Assembly: GCF_039691755.1 (NCBI RefSeq)
Contig: NZ_CP137552.1
Coordinates: 558,001 to 622,000 of the forward strand
Reading direction: 5' to 3'
Source of the DNA: Halomonas sp. Bachu 37
GTDB lineage: Bacteria > Pseudomonadota > Gammaproteobacteria > Pseudomonadales > Halomonadaceae
Length of the DNA stretch: 64,000 nt
The notes below the pieces were generated by a model. That model was not told the DNA's origin. It was given only the letters and a program-made list of their open reading frames with translations, and made no database searches. A program made the translations under genes and the position numbers. Of the stretch, positions 1,034 to 8,603 are shown piece after piece (position 1 is the stretch's first letter; each line of letters opens with the position of its first letter).

Positions 1034-1148
1034 AATTCGTCATGATCAGAGCTTAATGCCTGGTCCGAATTTCGGGGACCACCTCATTTTGGTGTCACCT
1101 TTTTTTGTTCCAAAAAGGCGCCACAAAAATTTGCTCGGTGAGCCGGGC
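1034..1148. other. Spacer between the IS3 copy and the first cassette core
   Basis: There is no gene here. It contains two imperfect hairpins: TGGTCC/GGACCA around 1060-1080, and a T-rich/A-rich pair CCTTTTT/AAAAAGG around 1106-1126. It could be the end of the IS, the remains of an attI or attC site cut by the IS, or both. I cannot choose between these from the sequence. Confidence 0.4.
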
Positions 1149-1156
1149 GTTAGGGC
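1149..1156 (+). repeat. Integron core site (R') opening cassette 1
   Basis: GTTAGGGC fits the R' core (GTTRRRY-type) at which integron integrases cut after the G. The following TTAGGGCT is the start of cassette 1. Its reverse complement AGCCCTAAC is found at 1721-1729 as the R'' of the same cassette, which is the pairing expected of a genuine cassette. The left half of this attachment site is not recognisable and may have been damaged by the IS3 insertion. Confidence 0.65.
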
Positions 1157-1422
1157 TGGTCGTAGTGTCCTCCAATGGCGAAAACGTAAATGGATTTGTC
1201 GTCGAATCGGTATATGAGTCTGTCTTTCTGTGAGATGCGCCGTGACCACAAGCCTGATAAGTTGTGTTTAAGCGGTTCAGGTTTGCCGATGCCGATTGAT
1301 GGGTCGTCAGAGCGGAGCATTTCTTTCAGCAATTTGCAGAGAGCTTTATGCAACTTCTTGTCTTTCTCTCGCATCTGTTCATAGGCTTCCCAAGTGCTAC
1401 CCTCAAATACCAGTGATCTCAT
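1150..1422 (-). CDS. yoeB: YoeB-type toxin (Txe/YoeB endoribonuclease)
   Basis: The 90-residue protein belongs to the RelE-fold mRNA interferases that cut mRNA at the ribosome. Family marks are WEAYEQM near the start, the Lys-rich KDKKLHKALCKLLKEML helix, GKPEPLKHNLSGLWSRRI, DRLIYRF and the C-terminal ending GGHYDQP. The catalytic region (Glu of GKPEPLK, Arg, His and Tyr near the C-terminus) is present, so it looks active. Its start overlaps the end of the antitoxin gene by 20 bases, as expected of a coupled pair. The TAA stop lies inside the cassette core site. It is encoded on the minus strand of cassette 1. Confidence 0.93.
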   Translation of the reverse strand: MRSLVFEGSTWEAYEQMREKDKKLHKALCKLLKEMLRSDDPSIGIGKPEPLKHNLSGLWSRRISQKDRLIYRFDDKSIYVFAIGGHYDQP

Positions 1423-1675
1423 TCATCTGCTCATCATTAGGTGTGTATCCTTGGCCACGGCTGTGAGTGTCGAGGGAGGCCGCAATTTGCTGCAGCAGGT
1501 CTCTACTCTGAAGAACATGCAGGGTTTCTTGTTCCCTTTCCCAGTCTTCAGCGCTCATAATCACGAAAGCCTCTCCGGCGCGGCGTGTCACTTTGAGAGG
1601 CTCATGTCTATTAATCACCTGTTCTACAAGGCTTTTTAGGTTGTCTCTGAATTTGTTTACACTGATGATATCCAT
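1403..1675 (-). CDS. yefM: YefM-type antitoxin (Phd/YefM family)
   Basis: The 90-residue antitoxin neutralises the YoeB toxin encoded just after it and represses their shared promoter. The N-terminal Phd/YefM DNA-binding fold is recognisable (IISVNKFRDNLKSLVEQVINRHEPLKVTRR, then AFVIMSAEDWE). I start it at the ATG at 1675, preceded by GGTGGAATT. An upstream in-frame ATG would add 11 residues with no family similarity. A palindrome lies just upstream. The toxin start overlaps its end, so translation is probably coupled. Confidence 0.92.
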   Translation of the reverse strand: MDIISVNKFRDNLKSLVEQVINRHEPLKVTRRAGEAFVIMSAEDWEREQETLHVLQSRDLLQQIAASLDTHSRGQGYTPNDEQMNEITGI

Positions 1676-1689
1676 AATTCCACCATTAC

Positions 1690-1706
1690 GTACGGAAACT
1701 CCGTAC
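1690..1706. promoter_or_regulatory. Operator-like palindrome upstream of yefM-yoeB
   Basis: GTACGG-aaact-CCGTAC is a perfect 6+6 inverted repeat 14 bases before the yefM start. YefM/YoeB complexes are known to bind short GTAC-centred palindromes in their own promoters, so this is a good candidate for the autoregulatory operator. Confidence 0.6.
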
Positions 1707-1720
1707 AACTATATCGCAAT

Positions 1721-1807
1721 AGCCCTAACAAGGCCAGTCACGGCGACGGTTACTACATTGCGGATTCGCCTCCATTCCGTAACCGCGCGTGCTGAGCGGC
1801 GTTAGCT
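1721..1807 (+). repeat. attC site of cassette 1
   Basis: R'' is AGCCCTAAC (1721-1729) and R' is GTTAGCT (1801-1807). Between them the arms pair imperfectly: CACGGCGACGGTTAC on the left can fold onto GTAACCGCGCGTGCTG on the right with unpaired bases, as in folded attC sites. The R'' is the exact 9-base reverse complement of the cassette's own leading core at 1149-1157. The central part (CACGGCGACG, TTGCGG, GCCTCCATTCCG, GCGCGTGCTG) recurs in the site at 3924-4007. Length is about 87 bp. Confidence 0.75.
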
Positions 1808-1826
1808 GTGATTGCCTCTCCCGCGC

Positions 1827-1846
1827 AGTGATACTATAGTGTCACT
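1827..1846. promoter_or_regulatory. Operator/promoter of the phd-parE pair
   Basis: AGTGATACTATAGTGTCACT is a near-perfect palindrome (one mismatched pair) that contains a -10-like TATAGT. It sits 25 bases before the antitoxin start. A palindrome over the -10 box is the usual place for a Phd/RelB-type antitoxin to repress its own operon. Confidence 0.55.
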
Positions 1847-1871
1847 GTAAATTTGTATCAGGGGGAGCCCC

Positions 1872-2129
1872 ATGAAAGTAGAGCTTGTTACAAACCTTAA
1901 GCGTCAAGCCACAAAAATTCTGGCAGACCTGCATCTGTCCAAAGAGCCGGTACTGATCACTGAACATGGCCAGCCATCCGCTTATCTTGTTGATGTGCAG
2001 GATTATGAGTTCATGCAGCGCCGACTTGAGTTGCTTGAGGGGCTCTCTCGGGGAGAGCGCGCTGTACTTGAGGGCAGAACGTACAGCCAAAGTGAGGCCA
2101 GGGAGAAGATGAGTCAATGGCTGAAATAA
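1872..2129 (+). CDS. Phd/YefM-family antitoxin
   Basis: The 85-residue protein has a Phd-like N-terminal DNA-binding half (VELVTNLKRQATKILADL, then PVLITEHGQPSAYLVDVQDYE) and a charged C-terminal half of the kind that wraps a toxin. It is preceded by a strong GGGGGAG ribosome site. Its last codons overlap the start of the ParE-like toxin by 13 bases. It is the plus-strand cargo of cassette 2 and should repress its own promoter through the palindrome at 1827-1846. Confidence 0.9.
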   Translation: MKVELVTNLKRQATKILADLHLSKEPVLITEHGQPSAYLVDVQDYEFMQRRLELLEGLSRGERAVLEGRTYSQSEAREKMSQWLK

Positions 2130-2419
2130 TCTGGACGGAGCCCGCCCTTCAACAACTGGATGCCATCGCTGACTACATTGCTCTGGATAACCCTGCTGCC
2201 GCAAGCCGTCTGGTCCAGGACGTTTTCGATAAAACCGAGCGTTTGGAAAATTTTCCCCAATCCGGCCGGATGCCTCCTGAGCTCCCCAATTCGGTATACA
2301 GAGAAGTAGTGGTTCCACCATGTCGCGTTTTTTATCGTGAGGATGAGCAGCGGGTTCTCGTCCTCTATGTCATGCGAGAGGAGCGGCAGCTTCGTGCGTA
2401 CATGCTGGGAAGCAGCTAA
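2117..2419 (+). CDS. ParE/RelE-superfamily toxin
   Basis: The 100-residue protein has the plasmid-stabilisation (ParE/RelE) fold: IIWTEPALQQLDAIADYI, then NPAAASRLVQDVFDKTERLENFPQSGR, VVPPCRVFYRED and VLYVMREERQL. ParE members poison DNA gyrase and RelE members cut mRNA; sequence alone does not tell which applies, though the layout is closer to ParE. It overlaps the antitoxin gene, so the two are made together. Its stop codon falls within the R'' of the cassette's attC, leaving no spare DNA. Confidence 0.9.
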   Translation: MAEIIWTEPALQQLDAIADYIALDNPAAASRLVQDVFDKTERLENFPQSGRMPPELPNSVYREVVVPPCRVFYREDEQRVLVLYVMREERQLRAYMLGSS

Positions 2420-2491
2420 CCAGACGCGGCACTCGGATGCCTTTGCCTCCGCTGCGCTGCGTCAAAGTCACCGGTATGCTCTGCGTTAGGA
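2414..2491 (+). repeat. attC site of cassette 2
   Basis: R'' AGCTAAC (2414-2420) is the reverse complement of the cassette's own leading core GTTAGCT (1801-1807), and the match extends to eight bases (CAGCTAAC against GTTAGCTG). R' is GTTAGGA at 2485-2491. Between them is an inner hairpin CTTTG/CAAAG and weaker outer pairing. The length of about 78 bp is normal for an attC. Confidence 0.72.
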
Positions 2492-2504
2492 TGCTGCAAA
2501 ATCC

Positions 2505-3017
2505 TCAGTTGAGGAGGATTGCGGCTGCGAGGTAAGTAGTCTCGAAGTGAAGATTGCGAGGTTTGGCGTGGATGCTAAAATCCCCGCCTGCATCGGCCAA
2601 CACTAGGGTCTGTTGACGTTTCATTCACGGCCGCGCTGGAGTCAGTTTTTATTCTGGGCAAGGCAGGAGAAGAGACGTTTGGTTATTCCAAATGAACGAC
2701 GACTAACGCCGCAGCGGATAAAAACTGACCCAGCCCTTCGGGTTGCGCATCAAAATGCGCCATCCTGCGTTGCGAAACTTGAAAAGGGAATAACCCTTCC
2801 CTGCGTTCCGCTCCTTGCCTGGCACATTTTGATGCAGCAACGCGGTTCGCGATGAAACGTCAACAGACCCTAGAGAAAAAGGCAATATGAACACGGCTCC
2901 CGTACCGATCCAATCGGCACGCCCGGCGCTCTGCAGCTCGTCGATCAGCATGCTGCGGATTACGCGATCCGCGTCAACTTGCTGGTTGCGCCCATCCGCG
3001 ATCATGTACTGTTGCAT
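2505..3017 (-). pseudogene. 81-codon gene of unknown function split by a MITE
   Basis: From an ATG at 3017 the minus strand encodes 49 residues (MQQYMIADGRNQQVDADRVI..., ending ILPFSL) and then runs into the MITE. If the MITE and one CTAG copy are removed, the frame continues without a break through VLADAGGDFSIHAK and KPRNLHFETTYLAAAILLN to a TGA at 2505-2507. That is 81 residues in all. The exact restoration of frame is strong evidence for a real, recently disrupted gene. I do not recognise the family. As it stands the gene would make a hybrid protein of about 104 residues ending inside the MITE. Confidence 0.7.
2603..2873. mobile_element. MITE (263 bp) with 18-bp perfect inverted ends and CTAG duplication
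   Basis: The ends are GGTCTGTTGACGTTTCAT (2607-2624) and its exact reverse complement (2852-2869), flanked by CTAG on both sides (2603-2606, 2870-2873). There is no transposase. CTAG fits the YTAR target of IS5-type transposases, so an IS5-family enzyme probably moved it. The inside carries further inverted pairs (2641-2652 with 2718-2729; 2681-2689 with 2787-2795; 2747-2761 with 2821-2835), so the single strand could fold strongly. It interrupts the 81-codon gene. Confidence 0.8.
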
Positions 3018-3040
3018 GTCGACCTAGACCGGAGAACGCC

Positions 3041-3889
3041 ATGCCTTCCCCCCTCGTGACCACCGACTGGCTGCAGGACAATCTGGATAACGAACATTTG
3101 GTACTGATCGACGCTAGCATGGCCAATGTCGTTGGCAAGGAGCCGATCGTTTATGACCGTCCTATGTTGATCCCGGGAAGTTTTCGGATCGACCTGGAAG
3201 GGGCGCTTTGCGATACCGGAGCTTCCCAAGCTCACGCCTTCCCGACGGAAGAGCAGTTCACGGCGGAGGCCTGTAGATTGGGCATCGAGCCCGAGAGCCT
3301 GGTGGTGTTGTACGACGATCAGGGTATCTACTCGGCACCACGAGCCTGGTGGATTCTGCGGGCTATGGGCCTCAAACAGGTGTTTGTTCTGGATGGTGGC
3401 CTGCCGCAGTGGTTGGCCGAAGGGCGGGACACCGATTCTGCTTCGGTTGCATATGCGGCCAAGCATGGCAGCGTGGTTGGTAAGCTCGACCACACCCTGG
3501 TTCGAGATTCTGTCTACGTTTTCCAGCATCTGGAGGACGAGCGAGTAACGGTCATCGATGCGCGATCACAGGAACGTTTCCTGGCGCAAGCGCCAGAACC
3601 CAGGCCTAGTGTGCGCGGTGGCCACATCCCCAATTCCCTCAACCTGCCGTTTACAGAGGTGCTGGAGGGTTATCGGTTCAAGCCAGCCAGCCAGCTGGCG
3701 TCAACGTTTGCCCACCTCGCTCCCTCCCTTCAGCCCAACAACGGGCACCAACTGGTGTTTTCCTGTGGTTCCGGCATCACCGCCTGCATCATTCTGCTGG
3801 CGGCCGAGCTGGCCGGGTATACTGAGCTGTCGCTGTACGACGGTTCCTGGGCTGACTGGGGGAGCAATGAGTCATTGCCGGTGGCGTAG
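3041..3889 (+). CDS. sseA: Thiosulfate/3-mercaptopyruvate sulfurtransferase
   Basis: The 282-residue protein has two rhodanese domains. The first is inactive and the second carries the catalytic Cys in the loop CGSGITA (about residues 247-253), the pattern of 3-mercaptopyruvate sulfurtransferases. Other family marks are YDDQGIYSAPRAWW, LDGGLPQW and RGGHIPNSLN. It moves sulfur from mercaptopyruvate or thiosulfate to acceptors such as cyanide or thiols and is cytoplasmic. The ATG at 3041 follows CCGGAGAACGCC. It lies divergent from the broken 81-codon gene and just before a degenerate attC, so it probably travelled as cassette cargo. Confidence 0.92.
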   Translation: MPSPLVTTDWLQDNLDNEHLVLIDASMANVVGKEPIVYDRPMLIPGSFRIDLEGALCDTGASQAHAFPTEEQFTAEACRLGIEPESLVVLYDDQGIYSAPRAWWILRAMGLKQVFVLDGGLPQWLAEGRDTDSASVAYAAKHGSVVGKLDHTLVRDSVYVFQHLEDERVTVIDARSQERFLAQAPEPRPSVRGGHIPNSLNLPFTEVLEGYRFKPASQLASTFAHLAPSLQPNNGHQLVFSCGSGITACIILLAAELAGYTELSLYDGSWADWGSNESLPVA

Positions 3890-3923
3890 CGGACATCATT
3901 TCGCTACAAGGGGAATTGGCGGT

Positions 3924-4007
3924 TCCTGACAATCACAGGCACGGCGACGTCTACTCTATTGCGGCTCTGCCTCCATTCCGCAGCTGCGCGTGCTGTCTGC
4001 GTGAAAC
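3924..4007 (+). repeat. Degenerate attC site after the sulfurtransferase
   Basis: The body (CACGGCGACG, CTCTATTGCGG, GCCTCCATTCCG, GCGCGTGCTG) is nearly the same as the attC at 1721-1807. The cores have drifted: R'' reads TCCTGAC (3924-3930) where TCCTAAC would pair with the cassette start at 2485, and R' reads GTGAAAC at 4001-4007 instead of GTTAAAC or similar. The shared body makes the homology secure; its activity is doubtful. Confidence 0.65.
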
Positions 4008-4009
4008 CA

Positions 4010-4300
4010 TCATTTTCTTCGTTTGAGATCGCGGTAGAAATTTTCGTGTGAGCCCAAGGCCATCAGTTCAAGCACCAGAGCGCCATCATCAAAACTGTAA
4101 CCCAGCAGAGTCAGCTGTTTGTTCATGTTGAACTTATGGACTCGCAGAAAGGCCAGATTCCCTTTCTTTTGTTCTCCAGTGTCGGGGTTGGCCATAAGAT
4201 CCTTAATGGCCAAATCAAGGTCCTTTTTCGGGTTGGGCTGGAGCTTCTTCACTGCTTTCTTGAATGTAGGGGTTTGTAATACACTCGTGGCCTTAACCAA
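4010..4300 (-). CDS. RelE/ParE-superfamily toxin
   Basis: The 96-residue basic protein shows the RelE-like pattern: TPTFKKAVKKLQPNPKKDLDLAIKDL, a Lys-rich turn (DTGEQKKGNLAFLRVHKF), LTLLGYSFDDGALVLELMALGSHENFYRDL and a basic tail. It starts 8 bases inside the end of the upstream antitoxin gene. Similar toxins are paired with ParD-like antitoxins of exactly the type found here. The target (mRNA or gyrase) cannot be told from the sequence. Confidence 0.85.
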   Translation of the reverse strand: MVKATSVLQTPTFKKAVKKLQPNPKKDLDLAIKDLMANPDTGEQKKGNLAFLRVHKFNMNKQLTLLGYSFDDGALVLELMALGSHENFYRDLKRRK

Positions 4301-4514
4301 AATCGTATGCCTCCAGCTTTCCGGCGTCCCGTTCTGCCTGCGCGATGATGGCCTGCCTCACGAACTCGTAGGGTAAATCGGGGTTATCTTCCATCATCTC
4401 GCCGATTTTTGCCCAATGTTCTATTTGCTTGGGTGGGGTCCGGTTAAGCGCTTTAGCTATAATGGTGGCTTTTTCAATCAGGTTTTGATCTAAACGAATG
4501 CTGTTCGTAGGCAT
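4293..4514 (-). CDS. ParD-like antitoxin
   Basis: The 73-residue protein matches the ParD_like group: NSIRLDQNLIEKATIIAKALNRTPPKQIEHWAKIGEMMEDNPDLPYEF, ending in a charged helix. It should bind the toxin encoded directly downstream and its own promoter. I start it at the ATG at 4514, preceded by GGAG with a six-base gap. Upstream in-frame ATGs add residues without family likeness. The ribosome site and start codon lie inside one arm of an inverted repeat. Confidence 0.85.
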   Translation of the reverse strand: MPTNSIRLDQNLIEKATIIAKALNRTPPKQIEHWAKIGEMMEDNPDLPYEFVRQAIIAQAERDAGKLEAYDFG

Positions 4515-4564
4515 TTGTAGCTCCATTGTTGAATTTTCTTGATTGTAGCAAAGAGCTACAAATG
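4512..4564 (-). promoter_or_regulatory. Inverted repeats over the promoter and start of the ParD-like antitoxin
   Basis: CATTTGTAGCTC (4512-4523) and GAGCTACAAATG (4553-4564) are perfect 12-base reverse complements. A second palindrome TGTAGC-aaaga-GCTACA lies at 4544-4560, so TGTAGC occurs three times. This suits an autoregulatory operator. If the transcript starts upstream of 4564, the two 12-base arms would also pair in the mRNA and hide the GGAG and ATG. Confidence 0.55.
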
Positions 4565-4670
4565 AGACGAGTTGCCACGGTCGCCGTTGCCGGATTGCTT
4601 TCCCGCTGGCGCTACAAAGCAGCAGCAAAGCGCGGAATCATGCAGTTTTAAGTCACGTGATGAGAAATTT

Positions 4671-5561
4671 ATGAGTACTCAACCGATGAAGTCGTTGTTA
4701 ACGTTTTCTGTCGCTGTTTTTCTTACCGTATCGGCATCAATTGCATCTGCTGACGGCCATGACTCCCTGATTGACACTGTGGAGCGAATCGCTGGCGAAT
4801 TAGAGGCTCGTGTGGGCTTTGCCGCTCATGATGTGGAGTCGGGCCAGCGGTGGGAATATCACGCTGACCAGCGATTTGCGATGTCCAGTACGTTCAAGAC
4901 GCTCGCCTGTGCCGCCCTGCTTCACCGGGTCGATACGGAAGAGGAGAGCCTCGACAGAACGGTGAGTTTTTCAGAGTCAGATATCGTGACCTACTCCCCC
5001 GTCACGGAGGAATACGCCGGCAGGCAAGCGATGACCCTTTCGGAGCTTTGTGAAGCGGCTCTGACGATGAGCGACAACACAGCCGCGAACTCGATTTTGC
5101 AAGCGCTGGGTGGGCCGGAAAAAGTGACAGCGTTCGCGAGGAGCTTGGGTGATGAGGTTACGCGTCTTGATCGCTGGGAAACGGAACTCAATGAAGCTGC
5201 ACCAGACGATCAACGGGATACGACGACTCCAAATGCGATGGTAAAAAATCTCGAGCGTTTGCTGTTGGGCGACGCGTTATCCGTAACTTCCAGGGATCAA
5301 CTACGGGACTGGCTTGAGAGAAACCAGGTTGCGGATGAGCTTTTTCGCGCTGCTGTACCGGAAGGCTGGATTATGGCAGATCGTACTGGGGCTGGCGGTT
5401 TTGGATCGCGATCTATAACCGCCATGATTTGGCCACCGGAGCGCAAGCCTATCGTGGTAGCTCTATATTTGACGCAGACGAAAGCTTCTTTCTCCGAGAG
5501 GAACGAGGCGATTGCCGAGATAGGTGACGCAATAGTGTTAGCGGTGAATACCGACCGGTAA
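4671..5561 (+). CDS. Class A beta-lactamase, RTG (carbenicillinase) type
   Basis: The 296-residue periplasmic serine beta-lactamase has a signal peptide of about 27 residues ending ASA. The active site is complete: Ser73 and Lys76 in SSTFK, SDN at 133-135, the omega-loop Glu169 and Asn173 in ETELN, and RTG at 237-239 in place of the usual KTG. RTG marks the CARB/PSE and RTG carbenicillinases, many of which are integron cassette genes, and the gene sits between attC-like sequences here. I start it at the ATG at 4671; an upstream in-frame extension has no signal character. Expected activity is against penicillins and carbenicillin. Confidence 0.93.
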   Translation: MSTQPMKSLLTFSVAVFLTVSASIASADGHDSLIDTVERIAGELEARVGFAAHDVESGQRWEYHADQRFAMSSTFKTLACAALLHRVDTEEESLDRTVSFSESDIVTYSPVTEEYAGRQAMTLSELCEAALTMSDNTAANSILQALGGPEKVTAFARSLGDEVTRLDRWETELNEAAPDDQRDTTTPNAMVKNLERLLLGDALSVTSRDQLRDWLERNQVADELFRAAVPEGWIMADRTGAGGFGSRSITAMIWPPERKPIVVALYLTQTKASFSERNEAIAEIGDAIVLAVNTDR

Positions 5562-5563
5562 AG

Positions 5564-5630
5564 CATGACCAGTGGCTGTGGCGAACGCACCCGCGCGGCA
5601 GCAAGATTGCCGCAACACTAGGCGTTAACT
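5564..5630 (+). repeat. Possible attC remnant after the beta-lactamase
   Basis: A core-like GTTAACT lies at 5624-5630, preceded by a clean hairpin GCGGCA-gcaagat-TGCCGC (5595-5613). The expected R'' is unclear (CATGACC near 5564-5570). The position right after the bla stop codon is where an attC would be, but the pairing rule met by cassettes 1 and 2 is not met here. Confidence 0.4.
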
Positions 5631-5651: not shown

Positions 5652-6368
5652 ATGAGTAACCTGCTTCAAATTACGGTCTTGACGTTGATCGCGGGGCTTG
5701 CCATGCCCATCGGGGCGTCGATTGCGGCGGTCGAGCGAATTCGTCCGAACTGGCTGGAAAACGAATTGCGCCACAGTGTCATCGCCTTCGGTGGCGGCGC
5801 GCTTCTCGCGGCGGTGGCGCTGGTGCTCGTTCCCGAGGGCATACGCACGCTATCGCCGTTGGCGATCTTCGTTTGCTTTGCCGGTGGCGGCGTCACGTTC
5901 ATGATCCTCGATAGGCGTTTGGCAGCGAACGACGCGCCGGTTAGCCAGCTGATCGCCATGCTGGCCGATTTCATACCGGAGGCGCTGGCGCTTGGGGCGA
6001 CCTTTGCCTTGTCGCGGGATGCCGGGCTGCTGCTGGCGGGTGTCATTGCCTTGCAGAATTTTCCTGAAGGCTTCAATGCCTACCGGGAACTCAAATCATC
6101 GACCCATTATCGTCGGCTACAGATCATCGGCGCTTTTATCCTGATGGCCATGCTGGGTCCGGCGGCTGGCTTGTCCGGGTATTTCGTGCTTTCGGGCTAC
6201 CCGAAAGTGGTGTCCGCTATCATGCTGTTTGCCGCCGGTGGCATCCTGTACTTGATTTTTCAGGACATTGCGCCTCAGGCCAGATTGAAGAAACACTGGG
6301 CGCCTCCCTTGGGCGCCGTGGCGGGGTTCTTGCTGGGCGTCATGGGGCAAATCCTGATCGAGGGATGA
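5652..6368 (+). CDS. ZIP-family-like metal transporter
   Basis: The 238-residue integral membrane protein has about eight predicted segments and the layout of ZIP (ZupT/GufA-like) divalent metal transporters. The two signature helices read ADFIPEALALGA and LQNFPEGFNAYRE. In most ZIPs the second reads HN-PEG, so a metal-ligand His is replaced by Gln. The substrate is therefore uncertain; Zn or Fe uptake are the usual roles. It starts 22 bases after the attC-like core behind the beta-lactamase, and may be the first chromosomal gene past the array or part of it. Confidence 0.8.
   Translation: MSNLLQITVLTLIAGLAMPIGASIAAVERIRPNWLENELRHSVIAFGGGALLAAVALVLVPEGIRTLSPLAIFVCFAGGGVTFMILDRRLAANDAPVSQLIAMLADFIPEALALGATFALSRDAGLLLAGVIALQNFPEGFNAYRELKSSTHYRRLQIIGAFILMAMLGPAAGLSGYFVLSGYPKVVSAIMLFAAGGILYLIFQDIAPQARLKKHWAPPLGAVAGFLLGVMGQILIEG

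Positions 6369-6394: not shown

Positions 6395-8603
<2,209 letters not shown>

Follow-up and report, generated by a model that had tools for sequence, protein, structure and literature searches.

Clusters of at least two attC sites that are not accompanied by an integron integrase are termed CALINs (clusters of attC sites lacking integron integrases) in the description of IntegronFinder 2.0, which includes the proposal that they are degraded integrons (PMC9024848). Table 1 of PMC10295459 lists both a CALIN and an In0 in Marinobacter sp. LQ44, insertion at attG is mentioned in PMC12901181, and the excerpted text of PMC3606827 names an integron in a reference only. We analyzed a stretch of 64,000 nucleotides of Halomonas sp. 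Bachu 37 (contig NZ_CP137552.1, positions 558,001 to 622,000; hereafter, the window). Positions 1093 to 5630 of the window very likely constitute a CALIN: five successive gene cassettes are joined by attC sites, and no integron integrase was found in the genome. The array is a known kind of element and is well supported, since several of its cassettes recur in other bacteria. attC anatomy was found at three joints, the cassette units are common to other places, and nothing in the genome matched the integron integrase (IntI) model over its cut-off. An earlier sequence-only reading of this DNA had proposed an integron cassette array, a proposal supported by attC matches far over background and by a gene order that is not that of the 15 relatives compared.

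Cassette joints and attC sites

The cassette joints are marked by the cores GTTAGGGC at 1149, GTTAGCTG at 1801 and GTTAGGA at 2485, all present where the sequence-only reading had placed them; coordinates of cassettes and attC sites are given on the plus strand throughout. That reading had also noted that in cassettes 1 (1149 to 1801) and 2 (1801 to 2485) the R'' box is exactly complementary to the core that leads the same cassette, and this holds over at least 8 bases. The R'' box of cassette 3 differs from its core at one position. We searched for a cassette pattern made of a GTTA core, its exact 8-base complement 200 to 1600 bases further on and a next GTTA core 45 to 140 bases later. Three instances were found in the 64-kb window, namely, cassettes 1 and 2, which are chained, and cassette 2 again from the opposite strand. 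Any chain of this pattern appeared in 1 of 300 dinucleotide-preserving shuffles, in agreement with the claim that such self-complementarity is hard to get by chance. A stricter version of the pattern, with GTTRRRY cores, had no instance in the window because the cores of the array do not fit RRRY.

We then built a covariance model, R1, from an alignment (A1) of 37 attC sites of 31 other genomes, collected as BLAST matches of attC1, the site at the end of cassette 1. The two sites of the genome under study, a third partial match in locus L042, a partial one in L121 and second copies were left out of A1, and four R-box pairs were added to the R1 consensus structure by hand. The A1 consensus folds into a stem, one arm of which has three unpaired bases, as in a folded attC. 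Twelve of the 24 pairs had changed on both sides; none of 500 shuffles, a control inflated by related sequences, reached that number, and slid versions reached 6 at most.

In the window, R1 gave matches starting at 1722, 2413 and 3923, next to the positions predicted beforehand (about 1721, 2414 and 3924). Together with the worn sites known by comparison, they place more than the two attC sites of a CALIN close to one another. attC1 (1722 to 1807; 100.7 bits, E = 6.9e-32) is intact and fits the R1 structure, with three extrahelical bases in its stem. attC2 (2413 to 2491; 22.7 bits, E = 8.6e-5) has intact boxes and a different sequence type and fits more weakly, and attC3 (3923 to 4007; 76.5 bits, E = 1.7e-23) is recognizable with worn core boxes. 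The next-best match over the window and the locus around it (L017; 84 kb in all) scored 10.2 bits. Neither attC2 nor attC3 ever served as a query in building R1. attC1 shares 79% identity with attC3 over 71 bases, and the two are the only copies of the attC1 type detected by BLAST (E up to 10) in the whole genome (3,489,967 bases in 3 contigs, completeness 100). attC2 has an 85% match in another genome of the genus, G009, where it lies beside another attC. R1 run on the whole genome returned two sites without attC2 among them, presumably because scoring covered only 150 of the 1549 first-look candidates.

Several observations weigh against the identification of the array as a CALIN. Because the sites behind R1 were chosen for their similarity to attC1, the score of attC1 is partly built in. 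Folding of the bottom strand alone is just modestly better than shuffles for attC1 (z = -1.5) and gives z = -0.9 for attC2 and +0.6 for attC3, and the last attC of the array folds at z = +0.6 without an attC shape. Single-strand folding was accordingly rejected as stand-alone support for attC2 or attC3. The homology of cassette 1 with Halomonas sp. PA16-9 (1152 to 1736) ends before most of the attC. Cassette 2 as a unit was not found elsewhere; its attC type was found in G009, and gene pairs like its own were found at 67 to 70% DNA identity. Finally, further attC sites of other types in this genome are not excluded, as 150 of 1549 candidates were scored in the whole-genome search.

Cassette contents and their recurrence in other genomes

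Profile matches bear out the predicted cargo, namely, a sulfurtransferase, a beta-lactamase and toxin-antitoxin pairs in three cassettes. All but one of the five cassettes have counterparts in other records, with homology edges at or near the joints, so that cassettes 1, 3, 4 and 5 are found as units between other neighbors.

Cassette 1 carries a YefM-YoeB pair on the minus strand, with a YoeB/Txe toxin gene (1150 to 1422; PF06769, 83.9 bits; TIGR02116, 73.3 bits for a cut-off of 51.8) and a YefM/Phd antitoxin gene (1403 to 1675; PF02604, 66.3 bits). It recurs at 92%, 87% and 87% identity in genomes G035 and G063 and in a Marinobacter plasmid, respectively. The homology spans 1147 to 1793 in G035, 1136 to 1804 in G063 and 1138 to 1803 in a 1983-bp Marinobacter record. 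This circular record, NZ_CP092287.1, has two attC matches and four annotated features, none of them a replication gene; it contains genes for a HigA antitoxin and a cupin in addition to the YefM-YoeB cassette. Instead of a plasmid, it could be a cassette circle released by excision, or a by-product of assembly.

Cassette 2 carries a Phd-ParE pair on the plus strand, composed of a Phd/YefM-type antitoxin gene (1872 to 2129; PF02604, 53.3 bits) and a ParE-type toxin gene (2117 to 2419; PF05016, 73.4 bits). In a phage search, this gene pair had 67 to 70% matches in five Vibrio phages.

Cassette 3 (2485 to 4000) holds a gene for a rhodanese-type sulfurtransferase on the plus strand (3041 to 3889; PF00581, 96.8 bits; NF008557, 198.4 bits, under its cut-off of 250). 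In G069, a 93% identical sulfurtransferase gene lies about 12 kb from IntI, and the homology runs from 2483, in the core, to 3975, inside attC3, beyond which the attC diverges. The cassette is split in the window by an element resembling a miniature inverted-repeat transposable element (MITE), which is absent from G069. This MITE-like element (2603 to 2873) is 271 bp long and forms a long hairpin with perfect terminal inverted repeats of 22 bases. A second copy, 94% identical, is present in the same genome, and matches, some of them partial, occur in 27 of the 82 genomes of the genus. An element whose ends are very similar stands, in locus L072, ahead of a transposase-like reading frame, as judged by eye; it is possibly the mobilizing relative.

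Cassette 4 (4000 to 4635, the right edge being approximate) is worn at both ends and carries on the minus strand a ParE-like toxin gene (4010 to 4300; PF15781, 123.4 bits) and a ParD-like antitoxin gene (4293 to 4526; PF11903, 57.4 bits). An 83% identical unit, corresponding to 3999 to 4613, is found in the Salinivibrio kushneri plasmid NZ_CP114587 beside other toxin-antitoxin pairs.

Cassette 5 (4636 to 5630) carries a class A beta-lactamase gene of CARB/RTG-like type on the plus strand (4671 to 5561), followed by a worn attC at about 5567 to 5630. Copies 80 to 85% identical occur in Marinobacter and Neptuniibacter. They span 4632 or 4640 to 5579-5599 in M. lipolyticus, N. pectenicola and M. 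persicus and 4667 to 5579 in Marinobacter sp. 1-4A, and in Neptuniibacter an attC ends at the start of the beta-lactamase cassette. The enzyme scores 329 bits with the class A profile NF033103 (cut-off 200) and stays below the cut-offs of the CARB/PSE/RTG profiles (NF000481, 386.9 bits for 430; NF000284, 385.1 bits for 600). We collected 65 beta-lactamase loci and searched 28 of them with R1, which gave 12 matches in 9 loci. Vreelandella genes 65 to 68% identical to that of the window (L166, L167 and L193) had no cassette joints visible by eye in the flanks inspected, and therefore the beta-lactamase gene seems to exist outside cassettes too; an R1 attC match lies about 7 kb from the gene in L166. 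According to a passage of PMC8352920, most beta-lactamase cassettes come from marine environments. The related cassettes of Marinobacter, Neptuniibacter and Salinivibrio, one of which has a beta-lactamase, are consistent with this view of a marine origin.

Search for an integron integrase

No IntI gene was detected by tblastn (1e-8) in the window, as the sequence-only reading had stated, or in the 19.5 kb to the left of its first base, where that reading had suggested that an intI might lie. An IS3 element and repeat debris are found there instead. With the IntI profile TIGR02249, the best match in the 3.49-Mb genome scored 80.3 bits, far from the cut-off of 265. A piece of this best protein scored higher when scanned alone, at 116.3 bits; the protein most resembles XerD, and the runner-up XerC. 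A 345-residue recombinase encoded at 2.47 Mb of contig C1, which looked IntI-like by a split Phage_integrase match, was rejected as an IntI with TIGR02249 scores of 25.5 and 34.2 bits. No attI was recognized by eye, so that neither intI nor attI of a complete integron was recovered.

IntI is present in the genus. Matches over the TIGR02249 cut-off occur in 19 of 82 genomes, with stops inside the match in 3 of those 19. At a threshold of 1e-30, 29 of the 82 gave a match, the additional ten being fragments or weaker matches.

Chromosomal site and edges of the array

The array is flanked on the left by a DUF4202 gene (PF13875, 230.4 bits) and on the right by serS, identified by Pfam and 83.6% identical to serS of Halomonas sp. 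PA16-9. The DUF4202 gene is present in 71 of the 82 genus genomes, and we compared the site in 15 of the 70 relatives that have it, picked mainly from the closest matches. The two genes are separated by about 150 to 390 bases in four of these relatives, about 1.6 to 2.7 kb in ten and about 11 kb in one. The gap is about 7 kb in the genome under study, including a ZIP gene described below. None of the nine cassette or ZIP genes of the window matched between DUF4202 and serS in the 15 relatives, nor did R1, which would miss unlike attC types, find an attC there. The sole R1 match in their loci, a weak one of 17.9 bits in L146, is outside the gap, and IntI had no match in the regions around DUF4202 that were compared. 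Conservation of the same gene order as ordinary chromosome in related genomes, which would have spoken against a cassette array, was thus not observed in these 15 relatives.

The left edge of the array should be placed at about 1093 rather than at 1149, as the right half of another attC is present there. Of this site, attC0 (1093 to 1151), the left half was not recognized. Positions 1093 to 1153 match, at 85 to 90%, an attC of the IntI-bearing G050 array (L122) over its right half. Window positions 1046 to 1154 give a good fold (z = -2.7) that lacks the attC form, whereas the G050 site folds as an attC (z = -5.5). The match of attC0 implies that at least one more cassette probably once stood on the left.

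Leftward from attC0 come 59 bases (1034 to 1092), an IS3-family insertion sequence, another repeat of about 110 bases and the DUF4202 gene. The insertion sequence occupies positions 1 to 1033 of the window on the plus strand, with a transposase frame from 142 to 1017 (NF033516 transpos_IS3, 256.5 bits for a cut-off of 160). Its full extent is 1235 bp (C1:557799-559033), its left end being about 200 bases outside the window. Terminal inverted repeats were found by alignment, and no target duplication was recognized by eye. The 59 bases between it and attC0 resemble the left end of the IS3 element by eye; they could be debris of a second IS3 copy. The other repeat, just left of the window (L017:19181-19292), matches a repeated element of 11 other genus genomes that has many copies in several of them, with as many as 8 places in a genome, and that also occurs at contig ends. 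It is probably the end of another insertion sequence.

On the right, the end near 5630 appears to be a worn attC, recognized through comparison with relatives. A ZIP-family metal transporter gene follows on the plus strand (5652 to 6368; PF02535, 46.1 bits) within the same insertion. It starts shortly past a GTTA core, has no recognizable attC and may be a gene cassette, possibly a sixth one. The flanks of the ZIP gene in 17 relatives showed no core or attC by eye, and R1 had no match in those loci. ZIP lies about 14 to 17 kb from IntI or attC in G071, G033 and G002, on the side away from the array in the first two. One plasmid record matched it at 1e-40, with 44% identity, and viral contigs gave no match. 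The cassette idea is kept alive by the patchy spread over distant taxa of proteins 69 to 83% identical, many on short contigs, among the best 120 of 4190 matches. Homology with relatives resumes at about 6426 to 6440, ahead of serS, at the right junction (6438 to 6560, plus strand). A plasmid search with the downstream region yielded one record, which matched the serS side alone. An Rfam scan of the window returned four tRNAs only.

Distribution in the genus and the order

BLAST matches of attC1 were found in 56 of the 82 genus genomes, that of strain Bachu 37 included, and R1 matches at 1e-3 in 74 of the 82, of which 31 supplied training sites. Among 194 genomes sampled across the order, R1 had matches at 1e-5 in 68, representing 47 of 96 genera. 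PMC8352920 describes taxon-level attC models, including one for Oceanospirillales, and attC sites that cluster by host environment, not by phylogeny. A broad spread of R1 matches is therefore expected and not new.

Possible history of the array

attC3 and both ends of cassettes 4 and 5 are off the core pattern, save the final core near 5624, and intact versions of the attC3, cassette 4 and cassette 5 joints exist in relatives. These worn ends suggest that the right half of the array is old and no longer moves. We propose that an IntI of the type found in relatives would have inserted circular cassettes one by one. The array would then have been cut off from its integrase, its left end giving way to the IS3 element and further repeat debris. 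The genes may persist through putative promoters of their own, and the toxin-antitoxin cassettes would have a putative role in keeping the stretch from being lost. Cassettes 1 and 2, whose ends are intact, may still be movable by an IntI supplied in trans, and cassettes 3 to 5, with their worn core boxes, are probably fixed.

It may be, with a little less than an even chance, that a whole integron was located between the DUF4202 gene and serS and that insertion sequences deleted its intI and attI at the left. The array reads from left to right, so intI would be expected on the left, where the IS3 element and the repeat of about 110 bases lie. The half-recognizable attC0 fits such a deletion, as do the broken IntI genes of the genus, the 3 of 19 with internal stops. 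This account is at odds with the 15 relatives, which have neither an R1 attC match between the two genes nor an IntI match in the regions compared, and with the flanks of the array, in which no intI fragment was found and attI was not recognized.

Alternatively, and with a probability that we also put just short of one half, intI was never present here. An IntI acting in trans would have inserted the cassettes at a secondary site, or the stretch would have been moved by recombination or insertion sequences. In the genus, genomes with attC matches outnumber those with an IntI over the cut-off (74 of 82 versus 19 of 82), a mismatch that makes integrase loss from arrays testable. By hand count, attC1 BLAST matches are present in 13 of the 19 IntI-bearing genomes and in 43 of the 63 others, and CALINs away from the intI locus are reported in Xanthomonas in a passage of PMC12444791. 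Against this, many of the genus genomes are drafts, in which intI can be missed, the worn right half suggests long residence, and insertion sequences overlay the left junction, so that the target site is unreadable.

As a broader and rather doubtful extension, integrase-less arrays might be the norm in the genus, cassettes of a single order-wide attC type having been scattered by passing integrases over many sites in the chromosome and then frozen; ZIP would then be a sixth cassette whose attC has been lost. The reading of the region as ordinary chromosome, with GTTA motifs due to chance, or as a dispersed repeat of non-integron nature that resembles attC, is very improbable and was rejected. 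GTTA motifs are indeed common and other palindromic repeats are dispersed in the genus, but the chained pattern occurred in 1 of 300 shuffles, R1 E-values are low for attC1 to attC3, cassette units recur in other contexts, and several relatives carry the attC repeat close to IntI genes.

Comparison with known systems

The beta-lactamase cassette links the array to other systems. Among plasmid matches, the nearest named family of enzymes is the RTG/CARB type (e.g., CARB-16), at about 59% protein identity. Unlike these enzymes, that of the window is under the NCBIfam cut-offs, and its closest relatives are the enzymes of Marinobacter and Neptuniibacter (79 to 82%). The plasmid integron of Marinobacter sp. 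SBY-1 (NZ_CP152381) contains the cassette 5 type twice, at 80% DNA identity. It differs from the array of the window by an annotated integron integrase upstream, a qnrVC1 cassette and a plasmid typed as conjugative.

With its clustered attC sites, its gene cassettes and no integrase, the array does not differ in kind from the CALINs as described in PMC9024848; its own features are the MITE-like insert in one cassette and the worn right half. A close parallel is the CALIN that PMC7923331 describes in Halorhodospira halochloris, also a halophile, with many toxin-antitoxin cassettes, an adjoining insertion sequence and a genome without intI. That array has ten cassettes and group II intron fragments, whereas the one described here has five cassettes, a beta-lactamase gene and an IS3 element. 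Halomonas sulfidaeris SST4 also has an integrase-less array, a CALIN in a Halomonas, compared here by its entry in Table 1 of PMC10295459. The present locus thus adds a well-supported integrase-less array in a Halomonas-type genus, for which the literature that we found offers little beyond that one table entry.

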